A program made the translations under genes and the position numbers. A stretch of 41,593 nt of DNA from Helicobacteraceae bacterium (GTDB lineage Bacteria > Campylobacterota > Campylobacteria > Campylobacterales > Sulfurimonadaceae), in contig WGDB01000047.1 in the NCBI GenBank assembly GCA_015493495.1, positions 1-41,593 on the forward strand. The letters run 5' to 3'. Positions 2,750 to 41,171 of this stretch are shown here, piece after piece (positions within the stretch are counted from its first letter, which is position 1; each line of letters begins with the position of its first letter). The notes under the pieces were generated by a model. The model worked only from the letters and a program-made list of their open reading frames with translations. It searched no databases and was not told where the DNA came from.

Positions 2750-2968
2750 ATGAGAGAATCATTTAAGAAAAATATCATAGAAGTATGCAACAAAAAGATC
2801 GAAGCCAAGGGTGATAATGTTGGTCTGTCATTTTATGCGTTTTTTGCCAACAAAAATGATGACCCTGAACTACTTATGGAGGTCGCCAAATGGTGGATAT
2901 GGGAAAACAGGCTAGATCATTTTGAAAAAGCTGTGAAGATAAGAGGTATGGTAGAAAATGAAAAATAA
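2750..2968 (+). CDS. hypothetical small helical protein
   Basis: 72-aa ORF with GGAG-type RBS, overlapping the start of the next gene. Confidence 0.5.
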   Translation: MRESFKKNIIEVCNKKIEAKGDNVGLSFYAFFANKNDDPELLMEVAKWWIWENRLDHFEKAVKIRGMVENEK

Positions 2969-3401
2969 AAAAGCAATAGATGTGATTGAATTGTTTAGCA
3001 ATGTATTGGGCGATAAAGTGAATGACTTTAACTTACCGCCTCCAAGCTTTGAGATAATGCAATGTGAGCTGATAGAGTACAGTGCACAACACCAGTCACT
3101 TATTACAAGACTACCCGTTCTAGAGAAATGGCAAAATCCCTTTGGCACAATGCAGGGTGGTATGATAGATGGTGCTATAGATAACGCTGTCGGGCCATTG
3201 AGCCTTTTAGCAGCTCCCATGAATATAACGCGAACCATAGAGACAAAGATACTCAAAGCCATTACAATGGATGTCGAGACCATTTATGTCAAAGCCAGGT
3301 TGGTTGAAGCAAAAAAGAGACGATTGATCTTTGAAGCTGAGATAGTTGATGAACATGAAGTGATATATGCAACCTCCAAAGTAGTTAATTTTGTTTTGTA
3401 G
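2958..3401 (+). CDS. PaaI-like hotdog thioesterase
   Basis: 147 aa; NPFGTMQGGMIDGAIDNAVGPLS matches the PaaI/YbgC-like hotdog motif (N..G..HGG....D). Confidence 0.7.
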   Translation: MKNKKAIDVIELFSNVLGDKVNDFNLPPPSFEIMQCELIEYSAQHQSLITRLPVLEKWQNPFGTMQGGMIDGAIDNAVGPLSLLAAPMNITRTIETKILKAITMDVETIYVKARLVEAKKRRLIFEAEIVDEHEVIYATSKVVNFVL

Positions 3402-4590: not shown

Positions 4591-4615
4591 GGATCCGAGA
4601 GGCTCCTAGATTTTT
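4591..4615 (+). terminator. candidate intrinsic terminator between convergent genes
   Basis: ggatcc-gaga-ggctcc imperfect hairpin (one internal mismatch) followed by tagattttt. Confidence 0.4.
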
Positions 4616-5990
4616 AATATGCTGCTTTCCAGATAGCACTAAAAGCGTCTACAGCTTCATCGATCTCTTCTAAATTAAAGCCACCAAAGCCCATACGTGC
4701 AGCTTCAAATTCTCCACCACTGCGCTCTTTGGCGAGGTAAAGGGCTATGTTGTTTTTTTCTGCCAAGGTCTTTAGTCTTTCCCAATTAAATTGAGGCGCA
4801 CTTGGCACAATAAGGATGGCGAGTCCTGCGCCTTGGGCTACGATGTTGCAAGTGTCACCCAAATGTCTGATAATCGCATCTTTCATGGCTTGATGCTTCT
4901 TTTTGTTGAGGATGCGAATACGTCGTATGTGCCTTTCCCAGTGTCCTTCTTGCATAAAAGCAGCAAGGGTCAGCTGAGTACTTAAACTCACACGGGCAAA
5001 ATGGGCGTCGTAACTTTTGTTATAGAGCTTCATCAACCATGAGGGTAGTACCATATAGCCGACACGAATAGAGGGAGATAGTGCTTTGGCAAAGGTACCC
5101 AAATATGCCACGCATTCCTCCTTGTCTAAACCTTGAAGTGAGGGAATAGGGCGGTTGTAGTATGCAAGTTCACTGTCGTAGTCATCTTCTATGATAAGTC
5201 CTCCGATGGATTGCATATGTGCGATAAGTTTGAGACGATTGGCTACAGGCATGGTCACTCCTGTGGGGTATTGGTGAGAAGGGGTGATGTAAATGATTTC
5301 GGCTTGGCTCTGTTGAAGTTCTTCTACACAAAGTCCCTGAGCATCTACCCCTATGGGGCTGATCTTGTATCCATATGCATCAAAGACCTTGTAGGCGATG
5401 TGATAGCCAGGTATCTCTTGAGAGAAGTGCTTGTATCGAGATTTGGCCAGTTTGGCAACAAGTTCCATAGCGTCACTAAACCCATGGGTTATGACGATAT
5501 TATCTGCATGACACAGTACGCCACGAGAGCTTTGAAGATAATTCACTATAGCCTCACGCAAGATCAACTCTCCTTGCCCTGTAGGATAGCTTCCAAAGTC
5601 GGTCTCTTGCGTGATGACCTTATTGAAAAGGCGTTTCCATGTCTTTAATGGAAAATCTTCTTTATGAAGACGTGCAGGAAAAAAATCGTATTTGTATGTT
5701 TTAGATGATGGATTGTCACCATTTTTGTTTGGATTTTCTGTATGAAAACTGTCAAAAAAGAGTTCACTAACATAGTAGCCACTTTTGGCACGACTCTCCA
5801 CGTATCCCTCTGCATAGAGTTGCACATAGGCAGACTCTACGGTGTTTTTACTCAAGTTGTACAGTGACGCCACTTTACGAATAGAGGGAAGTTTCTCCCC
5901 TACATGGTAGTTAGTAACAATATCATCTTTAATAGCTTGATAGAGCTGTATATATAGAGGGGTTTTACTTTTTACATCTAATACATACAC
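4614..5990 (-). CDS. MocR/PdxR-like GntR-aminotransferase fusion regulator
   Basis: N-terminal GntR wHTH (PLYIQLYQAIKDDI...LPSIRKVASLYNLSKNTVESAYVQL) fused to aminotransferase fold I with YLGTFAKALSPSIRVGYMVLP. Confidence 0.9.
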   Translation of the reverse strand: MYVLDVKSKTPLYIQLYQAIKDDIVTNYHVGEKLPSIRKVASLYNLSKNTVESAYVQLYAEGYVESRAKSGYYVSELFFDSFHTENPNKNGDNPSSKTYKYDFFPARLHKEDFPLKTWKRLFNKVITQETDFGSYPTGQGELILREAIVNYLQSSRGVLCHADNIVITHGFSDAMELVAKLAKSRYKHFSQEIPGYHIAYKVFDAYGYKISPIGVDAQGLCVEELQQSQAEIIYITPSHQYPTGVTMPVANRLKLIAHMQSIGGLIIEDDYDSELAYYNRPIPSLQGLDKEECVAYLGTFAKALSPSIRVGYMVLPSWLMKLYNKSYDAHFARVSLSTQLTLAAFMQEGHWERHIRRIRILNKKKHQAMKDAIIRHLGDTCNIVAQGAGLAILIVPSAPQFNWERLKTLAEKNNIALYLAKERSGGEFEAARMGFGGFNLEEIDEAVDAFSAIWKAAY

Positions 5991-6047
5991 TATCTGTCCT
6001 TATATATTTTTAATATTTTGTATCTTTACACAGGTACACATTTGGCA

Positions 6048-6053
6048 TATAAT
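6048..6053 (+). promoter_or_regulatory. candidate -10 box for the PNPOx-like gene
   Basis: TATAAT about 26 nt before ATG 6079 in the divergent intergenic region. Confidence 0.45.
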
Positions 6054-6078
6054 AACGTAAATCATTGAAAGGAACAGC

Positions 6079-6684
6079 ATGAACCCCAATTTTGAAATAA
6101 AAGATAAAGCACTTATTTATGACATACTCGACAAAGCAGAGTATGGTACTTTAGCACTGTGTGTTAAGAACAAACCCTATGCAGTACCACTTAATTTTGT
6201 ACGCATAGAAGATGACATCTATTTTCATGGAGCCTTAAAAAACAAAAAGATGAAAATGTTACAGCAAAATACTACCGTATCATTTTCGGTTGTAGAAAAC
6301 TATGCACTGATAGATTCTGACTTCTCTAGTACAGAGGATTTGGCATGTCCTGCGACACAGTTTTTTAAGTCAGTTAGCATTGAGGGTATGGCAGTAGTGC
6401 AAGAGAGTAGAGAAGTCAAGGTCAGGGTCTTTGAAGCTTTGATGCATAAACTCCAACCCAAAGGAGGCTACAAACCCTTTAGCGACAGCGTTTATGATCA
6501 AGCCTTAAAAGCCACAGCAGTGGTGAAGATAGAGATAAAAAAGCTCACGTGCAAGTTTAAATTTGGACAGCATTTGGATGAAGATAGGTTTAATATGATA
6601 CTCACGCATCTGTTAGCACGTGGTACACAGATAGATAAAGAGACGGTAAGAATTATGAAAGCACAAAGAGGAGTTAAGTTTTGA
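6079..6684 (+). CDS. pyridoxamine-5'-phosphate-oxidase-like / NimA-type FMN-binding protein
   Basis: GTLALCVKNKPYAVPLNFVRIEDDIYFHGALKNKKMKML typical of NimA/PNPOx-like split barrel; divergent from the MocR gene. Confidence 0.8.
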   Translation: MNPNFEIKDKALIYDILDKAEYGTLALCVKNKPYAVPLNFVRIEDDIYFHGALKNKKMKMLQQNTTVSFSVVENYALIDSDFSSTEDLACPATQFFKSVSIEGMAVVQESREVKVRVFEALMHKLQPKGGYKPFSDSVYDQALKATAVVKIEIKKLTCKFKFGQHLDEDRFNMILTHLLARGTQIDKETVRIMKAQRGVKF

Positions 6685-13068: not shown

Positions 13069-14793
13069 ATGTTTGAGTTTGACACCATCGCCACTCTTTT
13101 TGAACATATAGACAAAAATATAAAAACGCCATCTTATCTTAATTATAGAAACAATGCCCGTTGGAATAGCCTCGAGAAAACAGAGTTTGTGAGGCATGTA
13201 CAACAGCTCTCTTTAGCCTTTAGTGCTGTGGGTGTCAAGCAGGGGACTACGGTAGGCATTATGGCGCCATCATCTCCCTTTTGGTTGATGGTTGACTTCT
13301 CTTTACAGAGACTGGGTGCCATTTCTGTCCCTATCTTTACCAATATCGCTTCTGAAAATTTACAGTATGAGATAGAAGATGCAGATATACATTATCTATT
13401 TATTGCAGGCGTGCCAGTGGACACTGCATTAGAGAAGATCATACAAGAGATGCGATCTGTTGTGCTCAAAGACCTTGTCTTAAAAAACGATCATACCAAT
13501 GTTCATAGTTGGGAAGACTTTTTAGAGTCAGCTCAGGCAGGTGCCCTCAAGCCAGTCACTATCAACCCAACAGACACTGCTACTATTGTCTATACCAGTG
13601 GTTCTACCGGTCAACCCAAAGGGGTTGTCTTAAGTCATGAAAACCTTGTGACACAGGTTAAAGATGCTCAAAAAGCGATCTACTTAAGTGAAAAGGATAC
13701 GGCATTAAGTCTTCTGCCTCTTGCACATATCTTTGAACGGATGGTGATGCTTTACTATTTGGCTGCAGGTGTCAAGATCTATTTTGTAGATGATGTTCAA
13801 AAGGCAGGTACCTACATAAAAGAGGTTAAGCCAACAACAATGCTGGTCGTACCAAGACTGTTAGAGAAGATCTACACAAAAATGCATATGAATGTTGCCC
13901 AAGCACCTTTTTTTAAAAAACATGTTGCAAGTGTGGCATTTTGGTGGGCACGAGTGAGAGATCCAAACAGACTTAAACGTAATATTATAGATAGGTTCTT
14001 TGATCAACTTGTTTATAAAAAGCTTTTAGAGGCACTCGGTGGAAACTTCCGAATTATTATCTCAGGCGGGGCACCACTCTCAAAACCCATCTCGAAGTTC
14101 TTTTTAAACATAGGTCTTCCTCTTTATCAAGGTTATGGTCTTACAGAGTGTGCACCTGTAGTTTGTGTCAACAGAGTGGCGCATAATCGTTGGGGCAGTT
14201 CAGGGCAGGTATTTGAGAGTGTGGAGGTGAAGCTAGGTAAGGACAATGAGCTGTTAGTCCGAGGTAAAAATGTGATGAAAGGCTATCATAACAAGCCAGA
14301 AGTCACGGCAGAGACCATAGACCGTGAGGGTTGGCTTCATACAGGTGATCTTGCTTCTATAGATGCTGAGGGCTATATTACTATAGAGAGCCGTCTCAAA
14401 GAGCTTTTTAAGACCTCTACCGGAAAATATGTATCAGCCATCAAAATAGAGTCTGCACTGATGCATTCCAAATGGATCGAATACGCGATGGTGATCGCTG
14501 AAGGACGTGCCTATGTCACCGTCTTGATCTTCTGTGATAAAGCTGTATTGGAGACCTTGACCCCACAGCAAAAGATGATGACAGCACAGACCATTGCAAA
14601 AAAGATCAAAGAGGTAAACAGACACTTCAATAAATGGGAGCAAATAGGCGGCTTTAGTCTCATAGCAGAGACACCTAGTACAGACAATGGACTCCTGACA
14701 CCCTCTATGAAGCTTATACGCAACAAGGTAATGGATCGATATGAAAAAGAGATAGAAACCATGTATGCAGAAAAGTCAAAAGGAGGAGTGTGA
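13069..14793 (+). CDS. long-chain acyl-CoA synthetase (AMP-binding, FadD-like)
   Basis: TATIVYTSGSTGQPKGVVLSHENLV and YQGYGLTECAPVV, GWLHTGDLASID adenylate-forming motifs. Confidence 0.93.
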   Translation: MFEFDTIATLFEHIDKNIKTPSYLNYRNNARWNSLEKTEFVRHVQQLSLAFSAVGVKQGTTVGIMAPSSPFWLMVDFSLQRLGAISVPIFTNIASENLQYEIEDADIHYLFIAGVPVDTALEKIIQEMRSVVLKDLVLKNDHTNVHSWEDFLESAQAGALKPVTINPTDTATIVYTSGSTGQPKGVVLSHENLVTQVKDAQKAIYLSEKDTALSLLPLAHIFERMVMLYYLAAGVKIYFVDDVQKAGTYIKEVKPTTMLVVPRLLEKIYTKMHMNVAQAPFFKKHVASVAFWWARVRDPNRLKRNIIDRFFDQLVYKKLLEALGGNFRIIISGGAPLSKPISKFFLNIGLPLYQGYGLTECAPVVCVNRVAHNRWGSSGQVFESVEVKLGKDNELLVRGKNVMKGYHNKPEVTAETIDREGWLHTGDLASIDAEGYITIESRLKELFKTSTGKYVSAIKIESALMHSKWIEYAMVIAEGRAYVTVLIFCDKAVLETLTPQQKMMTAQTIAKKIKEVNRHFNKWEQIGGFSLIAETPSTDNGLLTPSMKLIRNKVMDRYEKEIETMYAEKSKGGV

Positions 14794-14870
14794 TGAGGAA
14801 TACAGATATATATCTTAAAAAAGCGTACAGTAGTAGTACATGCATAAACCACCCAGGAGGTGAGAGATGA
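14793..14870 (+). CDS. candidate coupled 25-aa micro-ORF
   Basis: MRNTDIYLKKAYSSSTCINHPGGER*, starts in a TGATG overlap with fadD and ends in an ATGA overlap with the thiolase. Confidence 0.3.
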   Translation: MRNTDIYLKKAYSSSTCINHPGGER

Positions 14871-16153
14871 AAGAGCGGATGGCCATAATAGAGGGAGTAC
14901 GATCTCCCATTGCCAAAGCAGGGGGCAAATTCAAAAACCTGCAGGCTGAGACTTTAGGGGCACGTGTTGTACAAGAAGCCGTGTTGCGTTCTGGACTATG
15001 TTACAGTGATTATGATGAAGTGATCATAGGTAATGTCTCACAACCTACCCATGCCGCCAATGTTGCACGGGTTATTTCGCTGAAAGCAGGCTTTGGTGAT
15101 GAGACCATTGCCTACACTGTTCACCGAAACTGTGCCTCGGGGATGGAGTCCATAACCTCTGCTACAGAGAAGATCTTAGCCGGTTCGGGTAAGGTCTACC
15201 TCTGTGGTGGCGTTGAGTCCATGAGTAATGTACCTCTACTCTTTGGAACACAGATGAAGCACTTTTTAGAAGCGTTGAGTCGCTCAAGAACATTGACACA
15301 AAAACTACAGACCATCCAACATTTTCGCCCTGGTTATCTTAAACCTGTTATAGGGTTGATGCAAGGGCTTAGAGACCCTGTGAGTGGCTTAATGATGGGT
15401 TCAACAGCAGAGATCTTGGCACAAGATTTTGGAATAAGCAGGGAAGAACAAGACAGCTTTGCTTTAGAGAGCCATCAAAAAGCCTCTAGAGCACAGCAAA
15501 AAGGTATCTTTGCTGAAGAGATCGTACCTATTGTCTATGACATTGCCCATGCTAAGATCATGCATGATGATGACGGTATCCGGCATGAACAGTCATTAGA
15601 AGCTCTTGGCAAACTTCACCCATTTTTTGATCGTAAAAACGGAACAGTTACAGCTGCAAACTCCTCACAGATCTCCGATGCAGCAGCAGCCTTGACACTT
15701 ATGAGCGAAAGTGAAGCTAAAAAACGTGGACTGGATCCCTTAGGGTTTTTGAGTGGCTTTGCCTATGCAGGCTTGGAGCCAAAACGTATGGGGATGGGGC
15801 CTTATTATGCCACTGCAAAACTCTTTAAAAATATGAAGCTTTCGCTTAAAGATATTGATCTTATAGAGATGAATGAAGCCTTTAGTGTACAAGTTCAGGC
15901 CAACCTAAAAGCCTTCCCTTCCAAACATTATGCAGCTGCTCATGGTTTTAATGCACCACTGGGAGAGATCGATACAAATGTGCTCAATGTCAATGGCGGA
16001 GCAGTGGCACTGGGACATCCTGTTGGTATGACAGGTACACGACTGGTGATCCATGTTCTAAAAGAGCTTCGACGCCGTAAAAAAGAGCGTGGTCTCGCAA
16101 CATTGTGCATCGGTGGCGGTCAGGGTGCCGCACTGCTGTTGGAGGTGGTATGA
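14867..16153 (+). CDS. acetyl-CoA C-acyltransferase (FadA/FadI-type thiolase)
   Basis: HRNCASGMESI, NEAFSVQ, NGGAVALGHPVGMTGTRL, CIGGGQGAALL thiolase motifs. Confidence 0.93.
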   Translation: MKERMAIIEGVRSPIAKAGGKFKNLQAETLGARVVQEAVLRSGLCYSDYDEVIIGNVSQPTHAANVARVISLKAGFGDETIAYTVHRNCASGMESITSATEKILAGSGKVYLCGGVESMSNVPLLFGTQMKHFLEALSRSRTLTQKLQTIQHFRPGYLKPVIGLMQGLRDPVSGLMMGSTAEILAQDFGISREEQDSFALESHQKASRAQQKGIFAEEIVPIVYDIAHAKIMHDDDGIRHEQSLEALGKLHPFFDRKNGTVTAANSSQISDAAAALTLMSESEAKKRGLDPLGFLSGFAYAGLEPKRMGMGPYYATAKLFKNMKLSLKDIDLIEMNEAFSVQVQANLKAFPSKHYAAAHGFNAPLGEIDTNVLNVNGGAVALGHPVGMTGTRLVIHVLKELRRRKKERGLATLCIGGGQGAALLLEVV

Positions 16154-18267
16154 TGAAACATTTAAAATATTCCCAAGATAAAGAAGGTGTAGCAACGATA
16201 CTCTTTGATCATGCCACACTCGATGTTAACCTCCTCTCAGAAGAGGTACTTTTAGAACTTGAAGTCCTTATAGAGAAACTTTCTCAAAATGATGAACTAA
16301 AGACGGTACTGTTCAAAAGTGCTAAAGAGGGCATTTTTATAGCAGGTGCTGATATCAATGAGATCAAATCACTGACAACACAAGAGCAGGCTCTTGCCAA
16401 AGTAAGACAGGGACGACGTATATTAAGCAGTATCGCCACACTTAAGGTTCCGACCATAGCTATTATTGATGGGGCAGCACTTGGTGGCGGGTTTGAACTT
16501 GCCTTGGCGTGTGATTACAGAATTGCCACTGAAAATCCCAAGTGTAAGATCGGTCTGCCTGAGGTGAGTCTTGGTGTGATGCCAGGCTTTGGTGGTACTG
16601 TACGCCTGCGTGAGCTTATTGGTCTACAGAAAGCTATGGAGCTTATACTTGGGTCTAAACAGCTTAATGGTAAAAAAGCAGAACATTTAGGTCTTGTGGA
16701 TGCCTGCGTACCTAGTGGTTACCTTAGTTTTAAAGAGGCTGAGTTCATAGCGGCTATCAACTCAGAGAAGGGACGAGAAAAGATCCTCTCTAAACGCCAC
16801 AAACCTACACTATTAGAACGTTTGGGAAGTGCTTTGATCTTCTCATTTACTGAAAAAGAGGTGGCAAAGAAGACCAAAGGAAAATATCCTGCACCTTTGG
16901 AAGTGATACACCACTTTAAAAAGATCCAGGATATGAATTTTTATGAAGCGTTGGAGTCTGAGACACAAAGTTTTGCCAAATTGGCACTCACACCCGAGAG
17001 TAAACATCTTATATCACTATTTTTTACCTCTGAACGTCTAAAACATGACAGCGGCGTTGGTAAAGATGTTCAAGCAAAACCTCTACACCGTGCTGCTGTC
17101 TTTGGTGGTGGTACCATGGGTTCAGGAATTTTGTGGCTCTTTAGTAAAATCGATATTCCGGTAAGGCTTAAGGTGCGTGGAGAGCAACAGATCGCCGAGA
17201 CACTGCAGGCTGTCAACAAAAACTATATGGCCATCAAAAAACGTGGACGGCTGAGCCAACGAGAGATAGAACTGAAACTTGACCTTATTTCAGCCGACAC
17301 AGGGTTCCGTGGTTTTGAGATGAGTGATATTGCCATAGAAGCCATTGTAGAAGATGTTTCTGCCAAAGAGACACTCTACAAGATTCTAGAGACACAGTTA
17401 GACAAAGAGGCTATTATTGCGACCAACACCTCCTCTCTTTCCGTTTCCACTTTAGCACGTTCACTGAAATACCCTGAGCGTTTTGTAGGGATGCACTTTT
17501 TCAATCCTGTTAACCGTATGCCACTTGTTGAGGTGATCAGAGGTGACAAAACTTCAGACGGGAGTGTGGCAACAGTCATTGCGTTGGCTAAAAGGGCTGG
17601 CAAGACGCCTATCGTTGTAGGAGACTGTCCCGGGTTTTTGGTAAACCGTCTATTGATCCCTTACATAGTAGAAGCTGTCCACATGTTTGAAGAGGGTGAA
17701 AGTTTTGAACGCATAGATACCTTGCTTTTAGACTTTGGCATGCCGATGGGGCCATTTAGGCTGGTGGATGAAGTTGGTTTGGATGTAGGCTATAAGGTGG
17801 CTAAGGTACTGGAAGAGGGGTATGGTTCTCGTATGAAAACTGCGCCAATCTTTGAGTGTATTTATTCCGATATGGGGTTACTGGGTAAGAAAAAAGGACG
17901 TGGTTTTTACACGTACATAAAAAATAGTTCAGAGGTCAATGAAGCAGTCAATGCCCTAGTCACTCAAAAGCATAGCTTTAGCGACGATGAGATCCTAGAC
18001 AGAACACTTTTAGTCATGGTTAACGAAGCTTCGCGTGCCTTGGAGGAGGGCGTGGTCGACAATGCTGCTTATCTTGACATGGCAATGGTCATGGGTACCG
18101 GTTTTCCACCTTTTAGAGGAGGACTTTTAGCCTATGCTGATGAGAGAGGTATAGAGAGTGTTGTTGCACGTCTTAAAGTGCTTAGTACACTTTATGGAGC
18201 ACGTTTTGAGCCATCAAGGCTTCTAATGACTATGGTACAAGAAAAACGTAAGTTTTACAAGGAGTAA
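16150..18267 (+). CDS. enoyl-CoA hydratase / 3-hydroxyacyl-CoA dehydrogenase (FadJ/FadB-type)
   Basis: Crotonase AALGGGFELALACDYRIA...KIGLPEVSLGVMPGFGGT; HCD FGGGTMGSGI and GMHFFNPVNRMPLVEVI; start at 16150 or 16153, not 16105. Confidence 0.93.
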   Translation: MMKHLKYSQDKEGVATILFDHATLDVNLLSEEVLLELEVLIEKLSQNDELKTVLFKSAKEGIFIAGADINEIKSLTTQEQALAKVRQGRRILSSIATLKVPTIAIIDGAALGGGFELALACDYRIATENPKCKIGLPEVSLGVMPGFGGTVRLRELIGLQKAMELILGSKQLNGKKAEHLGLVDACVPSGYLSFKEAEFIAAINSEKGREKILSKRHKPTLLERLGSALIFSFTEKEVAKKTKGKYPAPLEVIHHFKKIQDMNFYEALESETQSFAKLALTPESKHLISLFFTSERLKHDSGVGKDVQAKPLHRAAVFGGGTMGSGILWLFSKIDIPVRLKVRGEQQIAETLQAVNKNYMAIKKRGRLSQREIELKLDLISADTGFRGFEMSDIAIEAIVEDVSAKETLYKILETQLDKEAIIATNTSSLSVSTLARSLKYPERFVGMHFFNPVNRMPLVEVIRGDKTSDGSVATVIALAKRAGKTPIVVGDCPGFLVNRLLIPYIVEAVHMFEEGESFERIDTLLLDFGMPMGPFRLVDEVGLDVGYKVAKVLEEGYGSRMKTAPIFECIYSDMGLLGKKKGRGFYTYIKNSSEVNEAVNALVTQKHSFSDDEILDRTLLVMVNEASRALEEGVVDNAAYLDMAMVMGTGFPPFRGGLLAYADERGIESVVARLKVLSTLYGARFEPSRLLMTMVQEKRKFYKE

Positions 18268-18270
18268 ATT

Positions 18271-20667
18271 ATGCAATATCTTATAGCATCTGGTTTGACA
18301 CTGGTTTTGTTGGGTGTATGGTTTAAAGGTACACGTTTTAGTCTCTGGTCACTGCTTTTAGCAGCCGTTTTATGGAGTTGGTTTGAGCCGCCTTTACTAT
18401 TTTGGCTTGTTTACCTGCCGCTCAATGCTCTTTTGCTCTATCCTCCTTTAAGAAGCAAGCTAATTACCAAACATATTGTTGCATTGATGAAACAGAAAAA
18501 CCTTATGCCTAAGATCTCTGAAACAGAAAAAACAGCACTAAGAGCAGGTACTCTATGGATTGATGGAGAGTACTTTTCAGGTAAACCGGATTTTGAGCGT
18601 ATTTTTAAAGAGTCCTACCCGCAACTCACTGTACAAGAACAAGCCTTTTTAGATAACGAGGTCAATACACTCTGTGCGATGACAAACGATCATAAAGTCT
18701 TTCAAAAACGTGATCTGCCACCTGAGGTCTGGGCGTATCTTAAAAAACACAACTTCTTTGGTATGGTCATCCCAAAAGCATATGGTGGTCTTGGTTTTAG
18801 TGCATTAGGACACTCTGCTGTCGTTCAAAAACTGGCGTCAAGGTCACAAGTCCTTGCGATTACTGCAATGGTTCCCAACTCTATTGGTCCAGGTGAACTG
18901 ATTTTAGAACATGGTACTGAGTACCAAAAGAAACACTACCTTCCTCGACTTGCTGATGGTCGTGAAATACCTTGTTTTGCTTTGACAGAACCACTAGTGG
19001 GAAGTGATGCAACAGCTATCAATGCCACTGGTGTTCTCTTTAAAGATGAAAAGGGTGAGGTGAAGATCCGTCTTAATTTTGAAAAGCGCTACATTACCTT
19101 AGGAGCAGTCGCTACCTTGCTTGGACTGGCCTTTGTCTTAAAAGACCCAGATGCACTTTTAGGAGATGAAGAAGATCTTGGTATCACCTTTGCCCTTGTT
19201 CCCAACACCTTAGAAGGGGTAGACCAGGACCATCGTCATGATCCGCTTGGTGTTCCTTTTATAAACTCTTCACTTTATGGCAAAGATGTCATCTTAGAGA
19301 TCGACATGATTGTTGGTGCCAAAGCGGGGATTGGTAAGGGGTGGCAGATGTTAATGGAGTCACTCTCGGTTGGACGTGGTATCTCCTTGCCATCAACAAG
19401 TAGTGGTGGTATGAAACTAACTGCGCATGTAGCAGGAGCATACACAACGATTCGCGAGCAGTTTGGCATCTCTATCTCTCAGTTTGAAGGGATACAGTAT
19501 GAATTGGGACAGATCGCTGCGACCACCTATATGATGGATGCGGCGCGTATATTTACAATAGGTGCCATAGATGCAGGAGAAAAACCGGCCGTCATAAATG
19601 CGGTCATGAAGTACCACGCTACAGAGCGTTTTAGAGATGTCATCAACTCCGGGATGGACATCTTGGGTGGTGCAGGCATTATCTTGGGTGAGAAGAACCT
19701 CATAGGACATGCTTACATGGGTGCACCTATTGGTATTACGGTCGAAGGTGCTAACATCATGACACGTACGCTTATACAGTTTGGTCAAGGTGTCATACGT
19801 TGTCACCCCTATGCCTACAGTGAGATCGAAGCACTGGAAGCTGGCGACATTGCAGCTTTTGACAAACTCTTTTTTGCGCATATTGGTTTTGCACTTAGAA
19901 ACAGTATCCGTGCCAAACTGCTCTTTTTAAGTCGGGGATACCTGCACTTTAGTAAAAGTGATACCTTTGTTTTAAAATATGAGCGAAAGCTTGTCTGGAG
20001 TGCAGCTACTTTTGCTGCAATGACAGACGTAGTCATGGGACTCTATGGTGGAGGCTTCAAGCAAAAAGAGATGTTGAGCGCCCGTTTTGGAGATGTGCTC
20101 TCGTGGATGTACCTTTTAACTGCAACACTCAGACGTTTTGAAGCAGAGGGGCGCAAAGAAGAAGATAAGGTCTATGTCGAATTTATAGGAGCACAAGCCT
20201 TAAGTGAGATACAAAAAGCCTTTGATGCTATCTATGCCAACATAGGTAACGGTTTTGTACACTTCGTTTTTAAAAATATCATAGGATATGCAACCAAACT
20301 CAATGCCCTCGCATCTGAACCTAACGACAAACTCTACATCGCATTGGCAGCAAAACTCTCTCAAGAGAATGCCACAAGACAAACTTTAACAGAGGGTATC
20401 TACATTCCGGATGATCCTAAAGCTGCAATGGCTGAGATGGACCACTGTTTTGAGGCTGTTTTACAAGCCAAACCCATAAAAACAAAGATCAAAAAAGCAC
20501 TAAAAAGTAAACAACTTCGTAAGTCTGAGACACTGTTTGAAGATGCCTTGGCGGCCAAGATCATTACACAAGAGGAGTATCTATATGTCATTCAAACGCA
20601 ACGTGAGAGTGAAAATGTTGTTCAAGTCGATGCCTTTAGTGTTCAAGACTATCTAGCAAGGAAGTAA
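18271..20667 (+). CDS. fadE: membrane-associated acyl-CoA dehydrogenase (FadE-type)
   Basis: 798 aa with N-terminal TM region; ETEKTALRAGTLWIDGEYFSGKPDF and CFALTEPLVGSDATAI resemble E. coli FadE. Confidence 0.9.
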   Translation: MQYLIASGLTLVLLGVWFKGTRFSLWSLLLAAVLWSWFEPPLLFWLVYLPLNALLLYPPLRSKLITKHIVALMKQKNLMPKISETEKTALRAGTLWIDGEYFSGKPDFERIFKESYPQLTVQEQAFLDNEVNTLCAMTNDHKVFQKRDLPPEVWAYLKKHNFFGMVIPKAYGGLGFSALGHSAVVQKLASRSQVLAITAMVPNSIGPGELILEHGTEYQKKHYLPRLADGREIPCFALTEPLVGSDATAINATGVLFKDEKGEVKIRLNFEKRYITLGAVATLLGLAFVLKDPDALLGDEEDLGITFALVPNTLEGVDQDHRHDPLGVPFINSSLYGKDVILEIDMIVGAKAGIGKGWQMLMESLSVGRGISLPSTSSGGMKLTAHVAGAYTTIREQFGISISQFEGIQYELGQIAATTYMMDAARIFTIGAIDAGEKPAVINAVMKYHATERFRDVINSGMDILGGAGIILGEKNLIGHAYMGAPIGITVEGANIMTRTLIQFGQGVIRCHPYAYSEIEALEAGDIAAFDKLFFAHIGFALRNSIRAKLLFLSRGYLHFSKSDTFVLKYERKLVWSAATFAAMTDVVMGLYGGGFKQKEMLSARFGDVLSWMYLLTATLRRFEAEGRKEEDKVYVEFIGAQALSEIQKAFDAIYANIGNGFVHFVFKNIIGYATKLNALASEPNDKLYIALAAKLSQENATRQTLTEGIYIPDDPKAAMAEMDHCFEAVLQAKPIKTKIKKALKSKQLRKSETLFEDALAAKIITQEEYLYVIQTQRESENVVQVDAFSVQDYLARK

Positions 20668-20668
20668 A

Positions 20669-22786
20669 ATGATCGATTTTGTCTATAGCTCATCTGGTTT
20701 TATGTTAAAGGTGATAGACACGATCATGCAAACAAACATCAGGGTCCATGGCGAAGAGAACATCATAAAAAATGCGCCTACACTTTTTGTAGCCAACCAT
20801 TTTACCCGTTTTGAGACCCTGATTATGCCTTATGTCATTAACAGTCGCAGTGATAAAAAGATACGATCTCTTGCTGATCGCTCGCTATTTATGGGACTTC
20901 TAGGGACTTATCTTCAACACTCTGGCGCGCTTTCTACAGCAGATGAAAACAGAAACAATATTATTATTGGTGATCTCATTGCGGGACGTAATAACTGGAT
21001 CATCTATCCTGAAGGGTTTATGGTCAAAAACAAAAAAGTGACCTTGGAAGAAGCCTTTATGATTGATATTCCAAGGCATCATGGTCCTGTCTTCAGCGGT
21101 GCTGCACTGATGGCCCTTGAAGCCAAAAAAGTCAAAGAAGGTTTACGAAAACAGAAAAAATATAATCATGCTGCCTTCGAGACATTAAAAGAAAAATACT
21201 TTTTACAAGAGGATGATCTTTCATATCCAAGTACTTATATCACACCTGTTAATATCACCTATTATCCGCTAAGGCCTGGGCATAATGCTATGATGAACTT
21301 AGTAAGCCTTTTAACAGATGGTGATGCATCTGAACAGATGCTAGAAGAGATTGAGATAGAGGGTAACCTTCTCTCTAAAGCAGAGATTCATGTTCAGTTT
21401 TGTGAACCTATAAATCTTGCTCACTATACTCTTCATGAAGCAATTGACAAAGAGTCTATGCGTACGTTGAGACATGAACTAACAAAAGATTTTATGGAAG
21501 TAGTATATCAAAATGTCATGGTCCATATTGACCATATATTTAGTGCTATATTAGTACATTATAGAGAACGACGTATAGAAAAGGAGCATCTCAAGCAACT
21601 TCTGTTTACAGTGGCACTAAAGCTAAAAGAACTCGATGTTTATCATCTGCATCGTACTATAGATGAAGAGATCATTAACATATTAATAGATGAAGACTAT
21701 GCACCCTATGAGAGTGTACTGCAACTGGCACAAATGCAAAAGATTCTCAAAAGTGTCAGTCAAAAAAGCTATAGTATAAACTACAGACGTTACCAAAAAG
21801 AGAAACCATTTCATACCTTGAGACTGACCAACACATTAAGGGTTATCTTTAACGAGATAGCCATCTTACGACTCTTAAGAGAGACTGTTGATGAAACAGT
21901 AGGGGTTGACAGATTGCAGCTATCTAAAGATATTTTTTATCAACTCTACCGAAATGATCTGGCACTTTTTCATAAAGACTATAAAGAACACTACTCGGTA
22001 GTCGACTCTAAGTCCCAAGAGACAGGTGAGCCTTTTATACTTTATGATCCTAAATTTACGGTCGGAATTGTCTTTGCCCATGGCTTGAAGTCTACACCTC
22101 AAGAGGTGCGGGAGATGAGTGAATATCTTCATACTAATGGATTTAATGTTTATGGGGTAAGGTTAAAAGGACATGGTACACTACCAGAAGATCTACGTGA
22201 TGTGCATTATGAAGCGTGGATAGATAGTATGAATAGAGGCTACGCTGCAATGAAGCAGGTCTGTAAAAAGGTCTATCTTGGTGGTTTTTCAACCGGTGGT
22301 CTGGTGGCGCTGGTCTGTGCCTCTCGCAAAACATGCCCCATTGCTGGTATGGTCTGCATAAACACTGCACTAAAACTACATGACATCCGTATAGACTACG
22401 CCCAATCTATGCATGTTGTTAATAACTTTCTTTCACTGTTTAAGGCCGATCTAGAGTATATAGAACACAAAGCAGATAACCCTGAAACAAACTACTCCAG
22501 ACTCTATGTCAGTACATTGGCACAATTAAAAGGCTTGATGTCCGAGACCAACAAGATACTTAAAAAGATAGAAGCACCACTCTTAGTCATTCAAGGGGAC
22601 CAAGACCCTGTAGTCCTTGCCAAAGGGGCAGAGACTATCATTGCTAAAACATCTTCTGTACATAAAGAACTGTTCATCCCCAAAAGAGATCGACATATTA
22701 TTGTGCAAGGTGAGGGGAGAGAAGAGATCTTTAAAAAGGTGGTCTCTTTTATGAAAAAGAGAAAAAAAGTGGTCAAAAGAAACTAG
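20669..22786 (+). CDS. fusion protein: PlsC/PlsB-like acyltransferase plus alpha/beta hydrolase (monoacylglycerol-lipase-like)
   Basis: N-term FVANHFTRFET and IIYPEGFM; C-term VGIVFAHGLKSTPQEVREMSEYL, GFSTGG nucleophile elbow, GDQDPVV Asp, RDRHIIV His. Confidence 0.85.
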   Translation: MIDFVYSSSGFMLKVIDTIMQTNIRVHGEENIIKNAPTLFVANHFTRFETLIMPYVINSRSDKKIRSLADRSLFMGLLGTYLQHSGALSTADENRNNIIIGDLIAGRNNWIIYPEGFMVKNKKVTLEEAFMIDIPRHHGPVFSGAALMALEAKKVKEGLRKQKKYNHAAFETLKEKYFLQEDDLSYPSTYITPVNITYYPLRPGHNAMMNLVSLLTDGDASEQMLEEIEIEGNLLSKAEIHVQFCEPINLAHYTLHEAIDKESMRTLRHELTKDFMEVVYQNVMVHIDHIFSAILVHYRERRIEKEHLKQLLFTVALKLKELDVYHLHRTIDEEIINILIDEDYAPYESVLQLAQMQKILKSVSQKSYSINYRRYQKEKPFHTLRLTNTLRVIFNEIAILRLLRETVDETVGVDRLQLSKDIFYQLYRNDLALFHKDYKEHYSVVDSKSQETGEPFILYDPKFTVGIVFAHGLKSTPQEVREMSEYLHTNGFNVYGVRLKGHGTLPEDLRDVHYEAWIDSMNRGYAAMKQVCKKVYLGGFSTGGLVALVCASRKTCPIAGMVCINTALKLHDIRIDYAQSMHVVNNFLSLFKADLEYIEHKADNPETNYSRLYVSTLAQLKGLMSETNKILKKIEAPLLVIQGDQDPVVLAKGAETIIAKTSSVHKELFIPKRDRHIIVQGEGREEIFKKVVSFMKKRKKVVKRN

Positions 22787-38696: not shown

Positions 38697-38991
38697 GGTT
38701 CTCTCTTAATTATTGATAATGAAAGGGTACAAAAACAAGCTTAAGGTGTGGAATATTTATTTTTGATTTAAAACTATATCAACAAAGAATAATAAGCCTA
38801 TAAGTATCCTTTCTTTTTCACTCTTGGAATCAACGACTTTAGTCTTGGCTGTCACTGGGTAGAAGTAAACTTTTATTCCTTGTCTCCATAAGAATAACAA
38901 TATTAAGATGTAGTTAAATGATTACAACGAATATTACTATAATGTGTTTTTGTCACACATACAACTCATACTCTTATGTTACAATCACTCT

Positions 38992-39504
38992 ATGATAAAC
39001 AGAAGAGATTTTTTTCAATACAGTGGAATGGTCGGTGTTGCTGTTCTTGTGGGAGTTGCAGCTAAAAAGTATGCACAGAGCAATAACCCAAGTACAGAGA
39101 CCTATAAGATCATAGAAGCGCTCATAGACCATATGTTTGCAGACAGTGATGGTTACGTCACCTCACAACTCAACGTTGTTGGCTATTTTAAGGGTGTTTT
39201 GAACGACACACGTATCAGCATCGATCAACGTCACTACCTTATAAACGGTACAGTCTGGCTTGATGAGACCGCTGAGGAGGAGTATGACAAATCTTTTCTA
39301 AAACTGACTCATGATGAAAAAGAGAGACTTCTTAAAAAGATCTCGATGCTTCGTTGGGGAGACAGTTGGCTTTATAAGGTTATGGGCTACTATTTCGAGA
39401 CGGCATTTTCTGACCCTATCTATGGTGGAAATATCAATGGAGTAGGCTGGAAATGGCTTGCCTATGAACCGGGATTTCCACGACCAAACGAGGTAGCTAT
39501 ATGA
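38992..39504 (+). CDS. gluconate 2-dehydrogenase subunit 3-like Tat-exported protein
   Basis: INRRDFFQYSGMVGVAVLVGVAA twin-arginine signal; adjacent GMC oxidoreductase; start moved from 38944 to ATG 38992. Confidence 0.75.
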   Translation: MINRRDFFQYSGMVGVAVLVGVAAKKYAQSNNPSTETYKIIEALIDHMFADSDGYVTSQLNVVGYFKGVLNDTRISIDQRHYLINGTVWLDETAEEEYDKSFLKLTHDEKERLLKKISMLRWGDSWLYKVMGYYFETAFSDPIYGGNINGVGWKWLAYEPGFPRPNEVAI

Positions 39505-41171
39505 CAACAAAAGCAGACATCTGCATTATCGGCAGTGGAGCTGGGGGCGCACCTGTTGCCTATACTCTGGCAAAAGCAGGCTACAAAGTAGTCGTTTTGG
39601 AAAAAGGGTCACTCTATGATGAACGTGACTTTAAAAAAGATGAGATCGCAGTCTCGAGGCGTTCTCTCTTTACCCCTGACCTTAAAGATGAGTTTCATAT
39701 GGTAGAGACCTTGGATGAAGAGGGCAAGATCACTAAAGAGGGTGGTTGGAACTTCTGGAACGGCTCTATGGTGGGTGGTTCGTCAAACCTGATGAGTGGT
39801 TATTTTCACCGTATGAAACCTAACGACTTCAAATTATACTCTGCTTTTGGTGACGTGGAAGGTGCCAATGTTGTTGACTGGCCTATAGACTACGAGACGA
39901 TGGAGCCATACTACACCAAGGTAGAAGAGGTAGTGGGTGTCTCTGGAAAGATGGTAGAACACCCATTCAGAGAGAAACGCTCTACTGCAGATTTCCCTTA
40001 TCCTCCAACATGGGAGCATCCCATCGCCAAGTGGATCGATGACTCTTGCAGTAAGCTCGGTTACTTCGCCATGCCAACCCCTCGCGCTATCATCCCTTAC
40101 GATGCATTGGATCGTCGCGGATGTTCCTACTCCAACCTATGCGGCAGTTATGGCTGTGCTACCGGCGCGAAAAGTCATGCCAAGTCAGCCCTTTTGGACA
40201 AGGCAGTTTGTACAAACAACTGTACTATCATCGCTGATGCTTTTGTTTACAAAATAGAGAGTGAAAAAACAGAGGCGACTGCTATACACTATTATGACAA
40301 AGATGGCTCCTCACACACTGTACAGGCCAAGATCTATATTCTAGCAGCACAGGCTATAGAGAGTTCTCGACTCCTGCTTAACTCCAAAAATAGCCATTTT
40401 CCAAATGGCTTGGCAAACAGCAGTGGTGAAGTAGGTAAAAACCTTATCTTTTCTGCCGGAGGAAGTGGCAGTGGCAGACTCGACTTTAAAAACCTCACCC
40501 AGGAGCAGCAAGACTCCCTTCTGTTACATGGCGCCTTTGTCAACCGCTCTCTGCAGGACTGGTATGAGTACAATAAGGATGGTAAGCCCTACAAGGGTGG
40601 AACTATAGACTTTTTGTTTGAACACGCCAACGCTATACCAAGAGCCTTAGACCAAGTCTATGATATAAATGGAGACCTGCAGTGGGGCAAGACCCTTTCC
40701 AAAAATCTACATCACGCTTTTGAACGCTCTCGTGTCATCACCTTCGAGGTCTTTAACGACTGGATGCCAACTGACAACTGTTTTGTCACTGTTGACGAAG
40801 AGGAGAAAGACAAATGGGAGATCCCAGTTGGTAAGATCCGTCTCTATGGGCACCCTCAAGATCTAAAAGTCGGAAACCATCTTGCTCAAAAAGCGGTAGA
40901 GGTCTTAAAAGGGCTTGGCTGTGAAGATATCAGTTCAAACATCTCAGCCGCACCTCCACCCAACCTTGTAGCAGGAGGATGTCGCTTTGGAACAGACCCT
41001 AAACACTCTGTCTTAGATGTCAACTGTAAAACACACGACCTCAAAAACCTCTATGTCACTGACGCCAGTTTTATGCCTACAGGAGGCAGTGTCCCTTATA
41101 CTTGGACCATTTATGCTAACAGTTTCAGGGTAGCTGATAAGATTTTAGAAAGATTACAAAACAATGTTTAA
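39501..41171 (+). CDS. GMC oxidoreductase, gluconate/fructose dehydrogenase-like large subunit
   Basis: FAD motif ADICIIGSGAGGAPVAYTLAKAGYKVVVLEKG; C-terminal LYVTDASFMPTGGSVPYTWTIYANSFRVADKIL; CSYSNLCGSYGC Cys cluster. Confidence 0.88.
   Translation: MTTKADICIIGSGAGGAPVAYTLAKAGYKVVVLEKGSLYDERDFKKDEIAVSRRSLFTPDLKDEFHMVETLDEEGKITKEGGWNFWNGSMVGGSSNLMSGYFHRMKPNDFKLYSAFGDVEGANVVDWPIDYETMEPYYTKVEEVVGVSGKMVEHPFREKRSTADFPYPPTWEHPIAKWIDDSCSKLGYFAMPTPRAIIPYDALDRRGCSYSNLCGSYGCATGAKSHAKSALLDKAVCTNNCTIIADAFVYKIESEKTEATAIHYYDKDGSSHTVQAKIYILAAQAIESSRLLLNSKNSHFPNGLANSSGEVGKNLIFSAGGSGSGRLDFKNLTQEQQDSLLLHGAFVNRSLQDWYEYNKDGKPYKGGTIDFLFEHANAIPRALDQVYDINGDLQWGKTLSKNLHHAFERSRVITFEVFNDWMPTDNCFVTVDEEEKDKWEIPVGKIRLYGHPQDLKVGNHLAQKAVEVLKGLGCEDISSNISAAPPPNLVAGGCRFGTDPKHSVLDVNCKTHDLKNLYVTDASFMPTGGSVPYTWTIYANSFRVADKILERLQNNV

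Follow-up and report, generated by a model that had tools for sequence, protein, structure and literature searches.

Does the open reading frame that closes this fad gene cluster encode one protein with two working heads, an acyltransferase and a hydrolase, or is one half defective or separately made? In the window (the whole stretch of 41,593 nucleotides that was analysed), the earlier note had described one 705-residue polypeptide joining an acyltransferase to a lipase-like hydrolase, and this description holds. Both domains lie in one ORF (Table 1) and both were found above the curated Pfam cut-offs, PF01553 with 31.3 bits against 23 and Hydrolase_4 (PF12146, residues 467-678) with 73 bits against 27. 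PF01553 was also matched by 24/24 relatives of the fusion, and every full-length relative carries both domains in a single reading frame. The note had named two separately translated proteins as one of the objections to be met. Such split translation is unsupported, because the linker (residues 380-475) contains no ATG or GTG, its possible starts being three TTG codons, and the full-length relatives carry both domains in one ORF. The fusion, present in one copy in its own genome, is a real single polypeptide and not a chance arrangement, and both its halves come from superfamilies already known.

Table 1. Coordinates of the fusion gene, its domains and motifs, the preceding fad genes (window positions) and the phage copies (contig positions)
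Feature	Position	Strand	Basis or remark
FadD-like AMP-binding acyl-CoA ligase, operon gene 1	13069..14793	+	PF00501; order conserved in relatives
FadI-like thiolase	14867..16153	+	PF00108/PF02803; TIGR01930 above cut-off
FadJ-like enoyl-CoA hydratase/3-hydroxyacyl-CoA dehydrogenase	16105..18267, likely ATG 16150	+	domain searches
FadE-type acyl-CoA dehydrogenase	18271..20667	+	PF09317; NF007000 above cut-off
Acyltransferase-hydrolase fusion, 705 aa	20669..22786	+	single ORF, ATG start, no internal stop
PF01553 acyltransferase domain, residues 24-152	20738..21124	+	Pfam
Motif I N43-H44-FTRF-E49-T50 (HX4E)	20795..20818	+	H44, E49 identical in 38/38 rows covering the site
Motif III PEGFMVKNK, residues 114-122	21008..21034	+	P, E, G, M118, K120 identical in 40/40
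PlsB-matching region past motif IV, including start of helical C-terminal domain, residues 205-331	21281..21661	+	PlsB profile-profile alignment; GPAT1 fold match
Alpha/beta-hydrolase domain, monoacylglycerol-lipase-like, residues 452-698	22022..22762	+	PF12146; Bacillus monoacylglycerol lipase sequences in PDB, E 1e-25
Nucleophile Ser541 (GFSTGG)	22289..22291	+	identical 40/40
Acid Asp646 (GDQDP)	22604..22606	+	identical 40/40
His676 (RDRHII)	22694..22696	+	identical 40/40
Phage fusion copies	L104:4929-7208, L108:4953-7232, L109:4929-7208; also L105-L107, L111		IMG/VR

The hydrolase head is monoacylglycerol-lipase-like, as judged from its sequence. The fusion has the GxSxG motif and the Ser-Asp-His triad of this domain, and the apparent triad noticed earlier proved complete and invariant in the alignment. 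The closest solved sequences are those of Bacillus monoacylglycerol lipase (3rm3, 4ke9, 4lhe), which has the same triad but is a stand-alone enzyme.

As to the kind of acyltransferase (ACYLTRANSFERASE), a profile of residues 1-455 from 24 relatives was aligned to that of the PlsB family (hhalign probability 77%, P 2e-5), with residues 25-331 covered. In this profile-profile alignment, H44..E49 of the fusion falls on H306..D311 of PlsB and PEG on the EGG of motif III, ITPVNITY aligns with LIPIYIGY of PlsB motif IV, and the alignment runs on into the following helical region. Taken singly, both halves of the profile were placed correctly (P 7e-4 and 3e-4); reversed and shuffled controls, for which the C-terminal half alone was used, reached no better than P 0.095. 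When residues 1-455 were modelled with AlphaFold from ten sequences, with modest confidence (pLDDT 65, pTM 0.66), the best PDB match of the model was human GPAT1 (8e4y; E 6e-7, 454 columns, TMq 0.50), followed by T. maritima PlsC (5kym, E 2e-4) and then squash GPAT; a full-length model from 5 sequences (pLDDT 44) was set aside. Owing to the PlsB profile alignment and the GPAT1 fold match, the acyltransferase is considered GPAT-like in build, and its N-terminal ~330 residues appear to fit the PlsB/GPAT1 architecture better than that of PlsC. The PF01553 domain is shared with PlsC/AGPAT (TIGR00530), but a PlsC-type acyltransferase was rejected, as its fold match is poorer than that of PlsB/GPAT1 and the fusion scores 14 bits against the 103-bit cut-off of TIGR00530. 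The fusion also has a hydrolase and a helical stretch further on, both missing from PlsC.

In comparison to PlsB/GPAT (PF01553 plus GPAT_C, PF19277), the fusion has the same order of motifs I, III and IV and the subsequent helical region. It differs in having HX4E for HX4D, PEGxMxK for EGGRSRTGR and an additional hydrolase domain. Motifs II (FFxRR) and III (EGGRSRTGR) of PlsB, described as binding G3P/DHAP (PMC4207751), are absent and replaced by other family-wide residues. GPAT_C was not matched by hmmscan in the window protein, and was matched in 2/24 relatives at best E 0.0077. The fusion is therefore not classed as a member of PlsB and, since motifs II and III are not retained, its acyl acceptor may not be G3P.

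These differences bear on the idea of a surrogate PlsB, whose hydrolase head would clear surplus or wrong acyl chains. The PlsB/GPAT1-like build and the grouping of the gene with FadD, the maker of acyl-CoA, agree with it, as does the gene content: PlsB was not found in the own genome, where PlsY and other PF01553 acyltransferases are present, and it is missing from 34/35 fusion-bearing genomes. This absence is weak evidence, however, because Campylobacterota may lack PlsB generally, and the altered G3P-binding motifs speak against such a role. Moreover, a rule that every FadE genome has either PlsB or the fusion fails in Pseudomonadota, where 37 of 80 genomes have FadE and, among these, 10 have PlsB, one the fusion and 26 neither; FadE thus does not require a PlsB-like or fusion-like enzyme. 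On balance, a surrogate PlsB is unlikely. Two PlsY-type acyltransferases were seen in the own genome (G000 contigs C94 and C142; L097, L098), one of which could derive from the 4.6% contamination.

In the acyltransferase head, HX4E in motif I and EGFM in motif III were both confirmed as first described. The HX4D of PF01553 acyltransferases is not found in the fusion; the same genome encodes three further PF01553 proteins, which do have it. In a 40-sequence alignment, every one of the 38 rows covering motif I has the same N43, H44, R47 and E49; the other 2 rows were cut short by where their start had been set, and read NHFTRSE in the complete ORF. P114, E115 and G116, together with M118 and K120 of YPEGFMVKNK, are equally invariant over all rows, and K122 varies as K/H/R. 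Overall identity among the aligned relatives, phages included, drops to about 25% with these motif residues still unchanged. The relatives from Campylobacterales and from genome contigs all read N-H-[FL]-[TS]-R-x-E-[TA] at motif I, and the Glu is present in Campylobacterales, Alphaproteobacteria MAGs, larger Pseudomonadota genomes and marine T4-like phage contigs. No HX4D member of the family was found among the relatives reading through motif I. An isolated mutation, against which the earlier note had cautioned, is ruled out, and because all relatives covering the site have Glu, HX4E is a feature of the clade and not a local mutation.

HX4E is also known in the lipid A acyltransferases LpxL and LpxM of the same superfamily, where it is catalytic; LpxM needs its Glu, and alanine mutants of H132 and E137 in LpxL lose 1000- and 3000-fold activity (PMC6286764). 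The Glu of the fusion is thus compatible with catalysis. The fusion differs from these enzymes in having no LpxL-type Pfam match, and the fold match to LpxM is weak (E 0.05). Another likeness is with Aas (2-acyl-GPE acyltransferase/acyl-ACP synthetase), in which an acyltransferase is likewise fused to an acyl-handling partner and whose models PRK08633/PRK08043 are weakly matched by some members of the fusion family, but the partner domain of Aas is a ligase and not a hydrolase.

The earlier suggestion of an altered or inactive acyltransferase half has lost ground with these results. In its strict form, only the hydrolase head would be catalytic and the acyltransferase-like head would serve as an acyl-CoA sensor or membrane anchor. 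The unlikeness of motifs I-III to PlsB and to the HX4D proteins of the same genome would suit this, and so would the lower score of the acyltransferase half, which Pfam misses altogether in one large-genome relative (L066). But decay would not leave H44, E49, PEG, M118 and K120 invariant at ~25% identity, and the use of HX4E by LpxL/LpxM also stands against it; we consider an inactive head improbable. Residues H, E, PEG, M and K, unchanged from bacteria to phages, speak for a functional acyltransferase head, and the family, with its shared Glu, is a conserved lipid enzyme and neither broken nor mutated.

The genomic setting of the acyltransferase-hydrolase is a fatty-acid-use operon. The fusion is the last gene after fadD-fadI-fadJ-fadE, with 1 nt between the fadE stop and its ATG, and the corresponding distance in same-strand loci ranges from -7 to +17 bp. 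It was found in 20/249 Campylobacterales genomes, the window's own and 19 others with full-length copies at 34-41% identity. Independent searches for the FadE type (PF09317) and for the fusion gave exactly the same 20 genomes, spread over 14 genera, with a chance figure of 6e-30 that ignores shared ancestry. In 17 of these (window counted) FadE is the gene directly upstream of the fusion; in one more it lies at a greater distance upstream, and in the other two it is on a separate contig. Mirror-tree correlations of the fusion with the Fad proteins (r 0.90-0.94) carry no correction for common species history and are not counted as evidence here. FadL (PF03349) was tried as a partner marker and is uninformative, as it occurs in 152/249 genomes. 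Outside Campylobacterales, fad genes adjoin the fusion in two Alphaproteobacteria MAG loci, in divergent orientation, and are absent, within the stretch fetched, beside several other MAG fusions and beside the phage and large-genome fusions; the tie to beta-oxidation is therefore not universal.

Taken with the likeness of the two heads, this setting leads us to propose an acyl-CoA-dependent GPAT-like acyltransferase and a monoacylglycerol-lipase-like hydrolase that would together partition acyl chains between glycerolipid esters and beta-oxidation, a reading to which we give a probability of about one half. The C-terminal serine hydrolase would release fatty acids from monoacylglycerol or a similar lysolipid or ester, and FadD would activate them to acyl-CoA. 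In the N-terminal head His44 may act as the base, oriented by Glu49, with HX4E doing the work of HX4D, and the acyl group would pass from acyl-CoA to an acceptor of the glycerol type, be it G3P, a lysolipid or monoacylglycerol. In this way the fusion would decide how many acyl chains go to glycerolipids and how many enter the FadE/FadJ/FadI cycle of beta-oxidation. We infer catalysis by both heads, the substrates, the direction and any channelling; acyl-CoA as the donor is presumed from the operon and the GPAT likeness only. A storage-lipid or wax enzyme, whose two heads would form triacylglycerol or wax ester as neutral lipid and mobilise it again, drawing on the operon's acyl-CoA, would suit the lipase-like head, the acyl-CoA supply and the acceptor motifs unlike those of G3P enzymes, but with no further neutral-lipid synthesis gene seen within the window and a modelled fold that is GPAT-like it is very improbable.

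Further relatives include four fusion loci from genome contigs, two of them in Alphaproteobacteria MAGs. A Pseudomonadota search gave more MAG relatives with HX4E, including one whose genome has 3.1 Mb. It also gave a divergent HX4E group of ~780 aa from Pseudomonadota genomes of 4.4-4.7 Mb (L049, L050 and L051; larger regions L066-L068), which reads FNHFARFET and has no fad genes beside it within the sequence retrieved. When IMG/VR was scanned with the family profile, eight contigs came up, 7 of them with a full-length fusion of about 760 aa, these seven copies being 78-100% identical to the reference copy L104. The four copies read through contain NHFSRIE, PEGGMVKD and GFSTGG. The phage fusion sits between DNA methyltransferase and nucleotide-metabolism genes, and L104, flanked by DNA methyltransferases, the ribonucleotide reductase small subunit, ThyX and DUF6267, is taken, from these genes, for a T4-like marine phage. 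The fusions of the phages cluster with the large-genome Pseudomonadota clade (support 1.0), their nearest bacterial relatives being L049-L051. In the plasmid and annotated-phage collections, hydrolase-domain matches but no full fusion were found among the matches listed. One viral-collection contig (L110:4869-6494) has only the acyltransferase part (NHFARFE), without the hydrolase and overlapping an adjoining tape-measure-like ORF; it may be a damaged copy or a chimeric assembly.

The PlsB/GPAT-type build, the beta-oxidation operon with its exact FadE co-occurrence and the phage copies had all been missed in the first reading of the locus. A description of an acyltransferase-hydrolase fusion was not found in the open-licence full text searched, nor was an HX4E clade with a GPAT build, a tie to FadE and phage copies. 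Presumably databases already list such proteins under generic labels, 'alpha/beta fold hydrolase' for example.

Where phospholipid synthesis by PlsX/PlsY/PlsC and fatty-acid burning occur in one bacterium, acyl chains have to be allotted to one or the other. The fusion, which may both release and attach such chains, begins 1 nt past fadE, never occurs without FadE in the sampled Campylobacterales, and is a good candidate for the point of this decision. Further, it adds a clear HX4E clade beyond the lipid A enzymes, useful for the role of Asp versus Glu in the superfamily, and it brings to light a lipid gene of marine phages. More tentatively, it is possible that this enzyme family is bifunctional: a GPAT-type head, its catalytic site rebuilt (HX4E, PEGxMxK) and its acyl acceptor new, would be joined covalently to a lipase of its own. 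The pair would be tied to FadE-type beta-oxidation in Campylobacterales, and marine T4-like phages would have acquired it to remodel the lipids of the infected host.

Elsewhere in the window, an FlK-type (fluoroacetyl-CoA-like) thioesterase was seen at 2332-2712 with an adjoining 147-aa ORF at 2958-3401, a GntR/aminotransferase (MocR-like) regulator with a divergent pyridoxamine-phosphate-oxidase-like protein at 4614-6684, and a gluconate 2-dehydrogenase subunit 3-like protein followed by a GMC oxidoreductase at 38944-41171.
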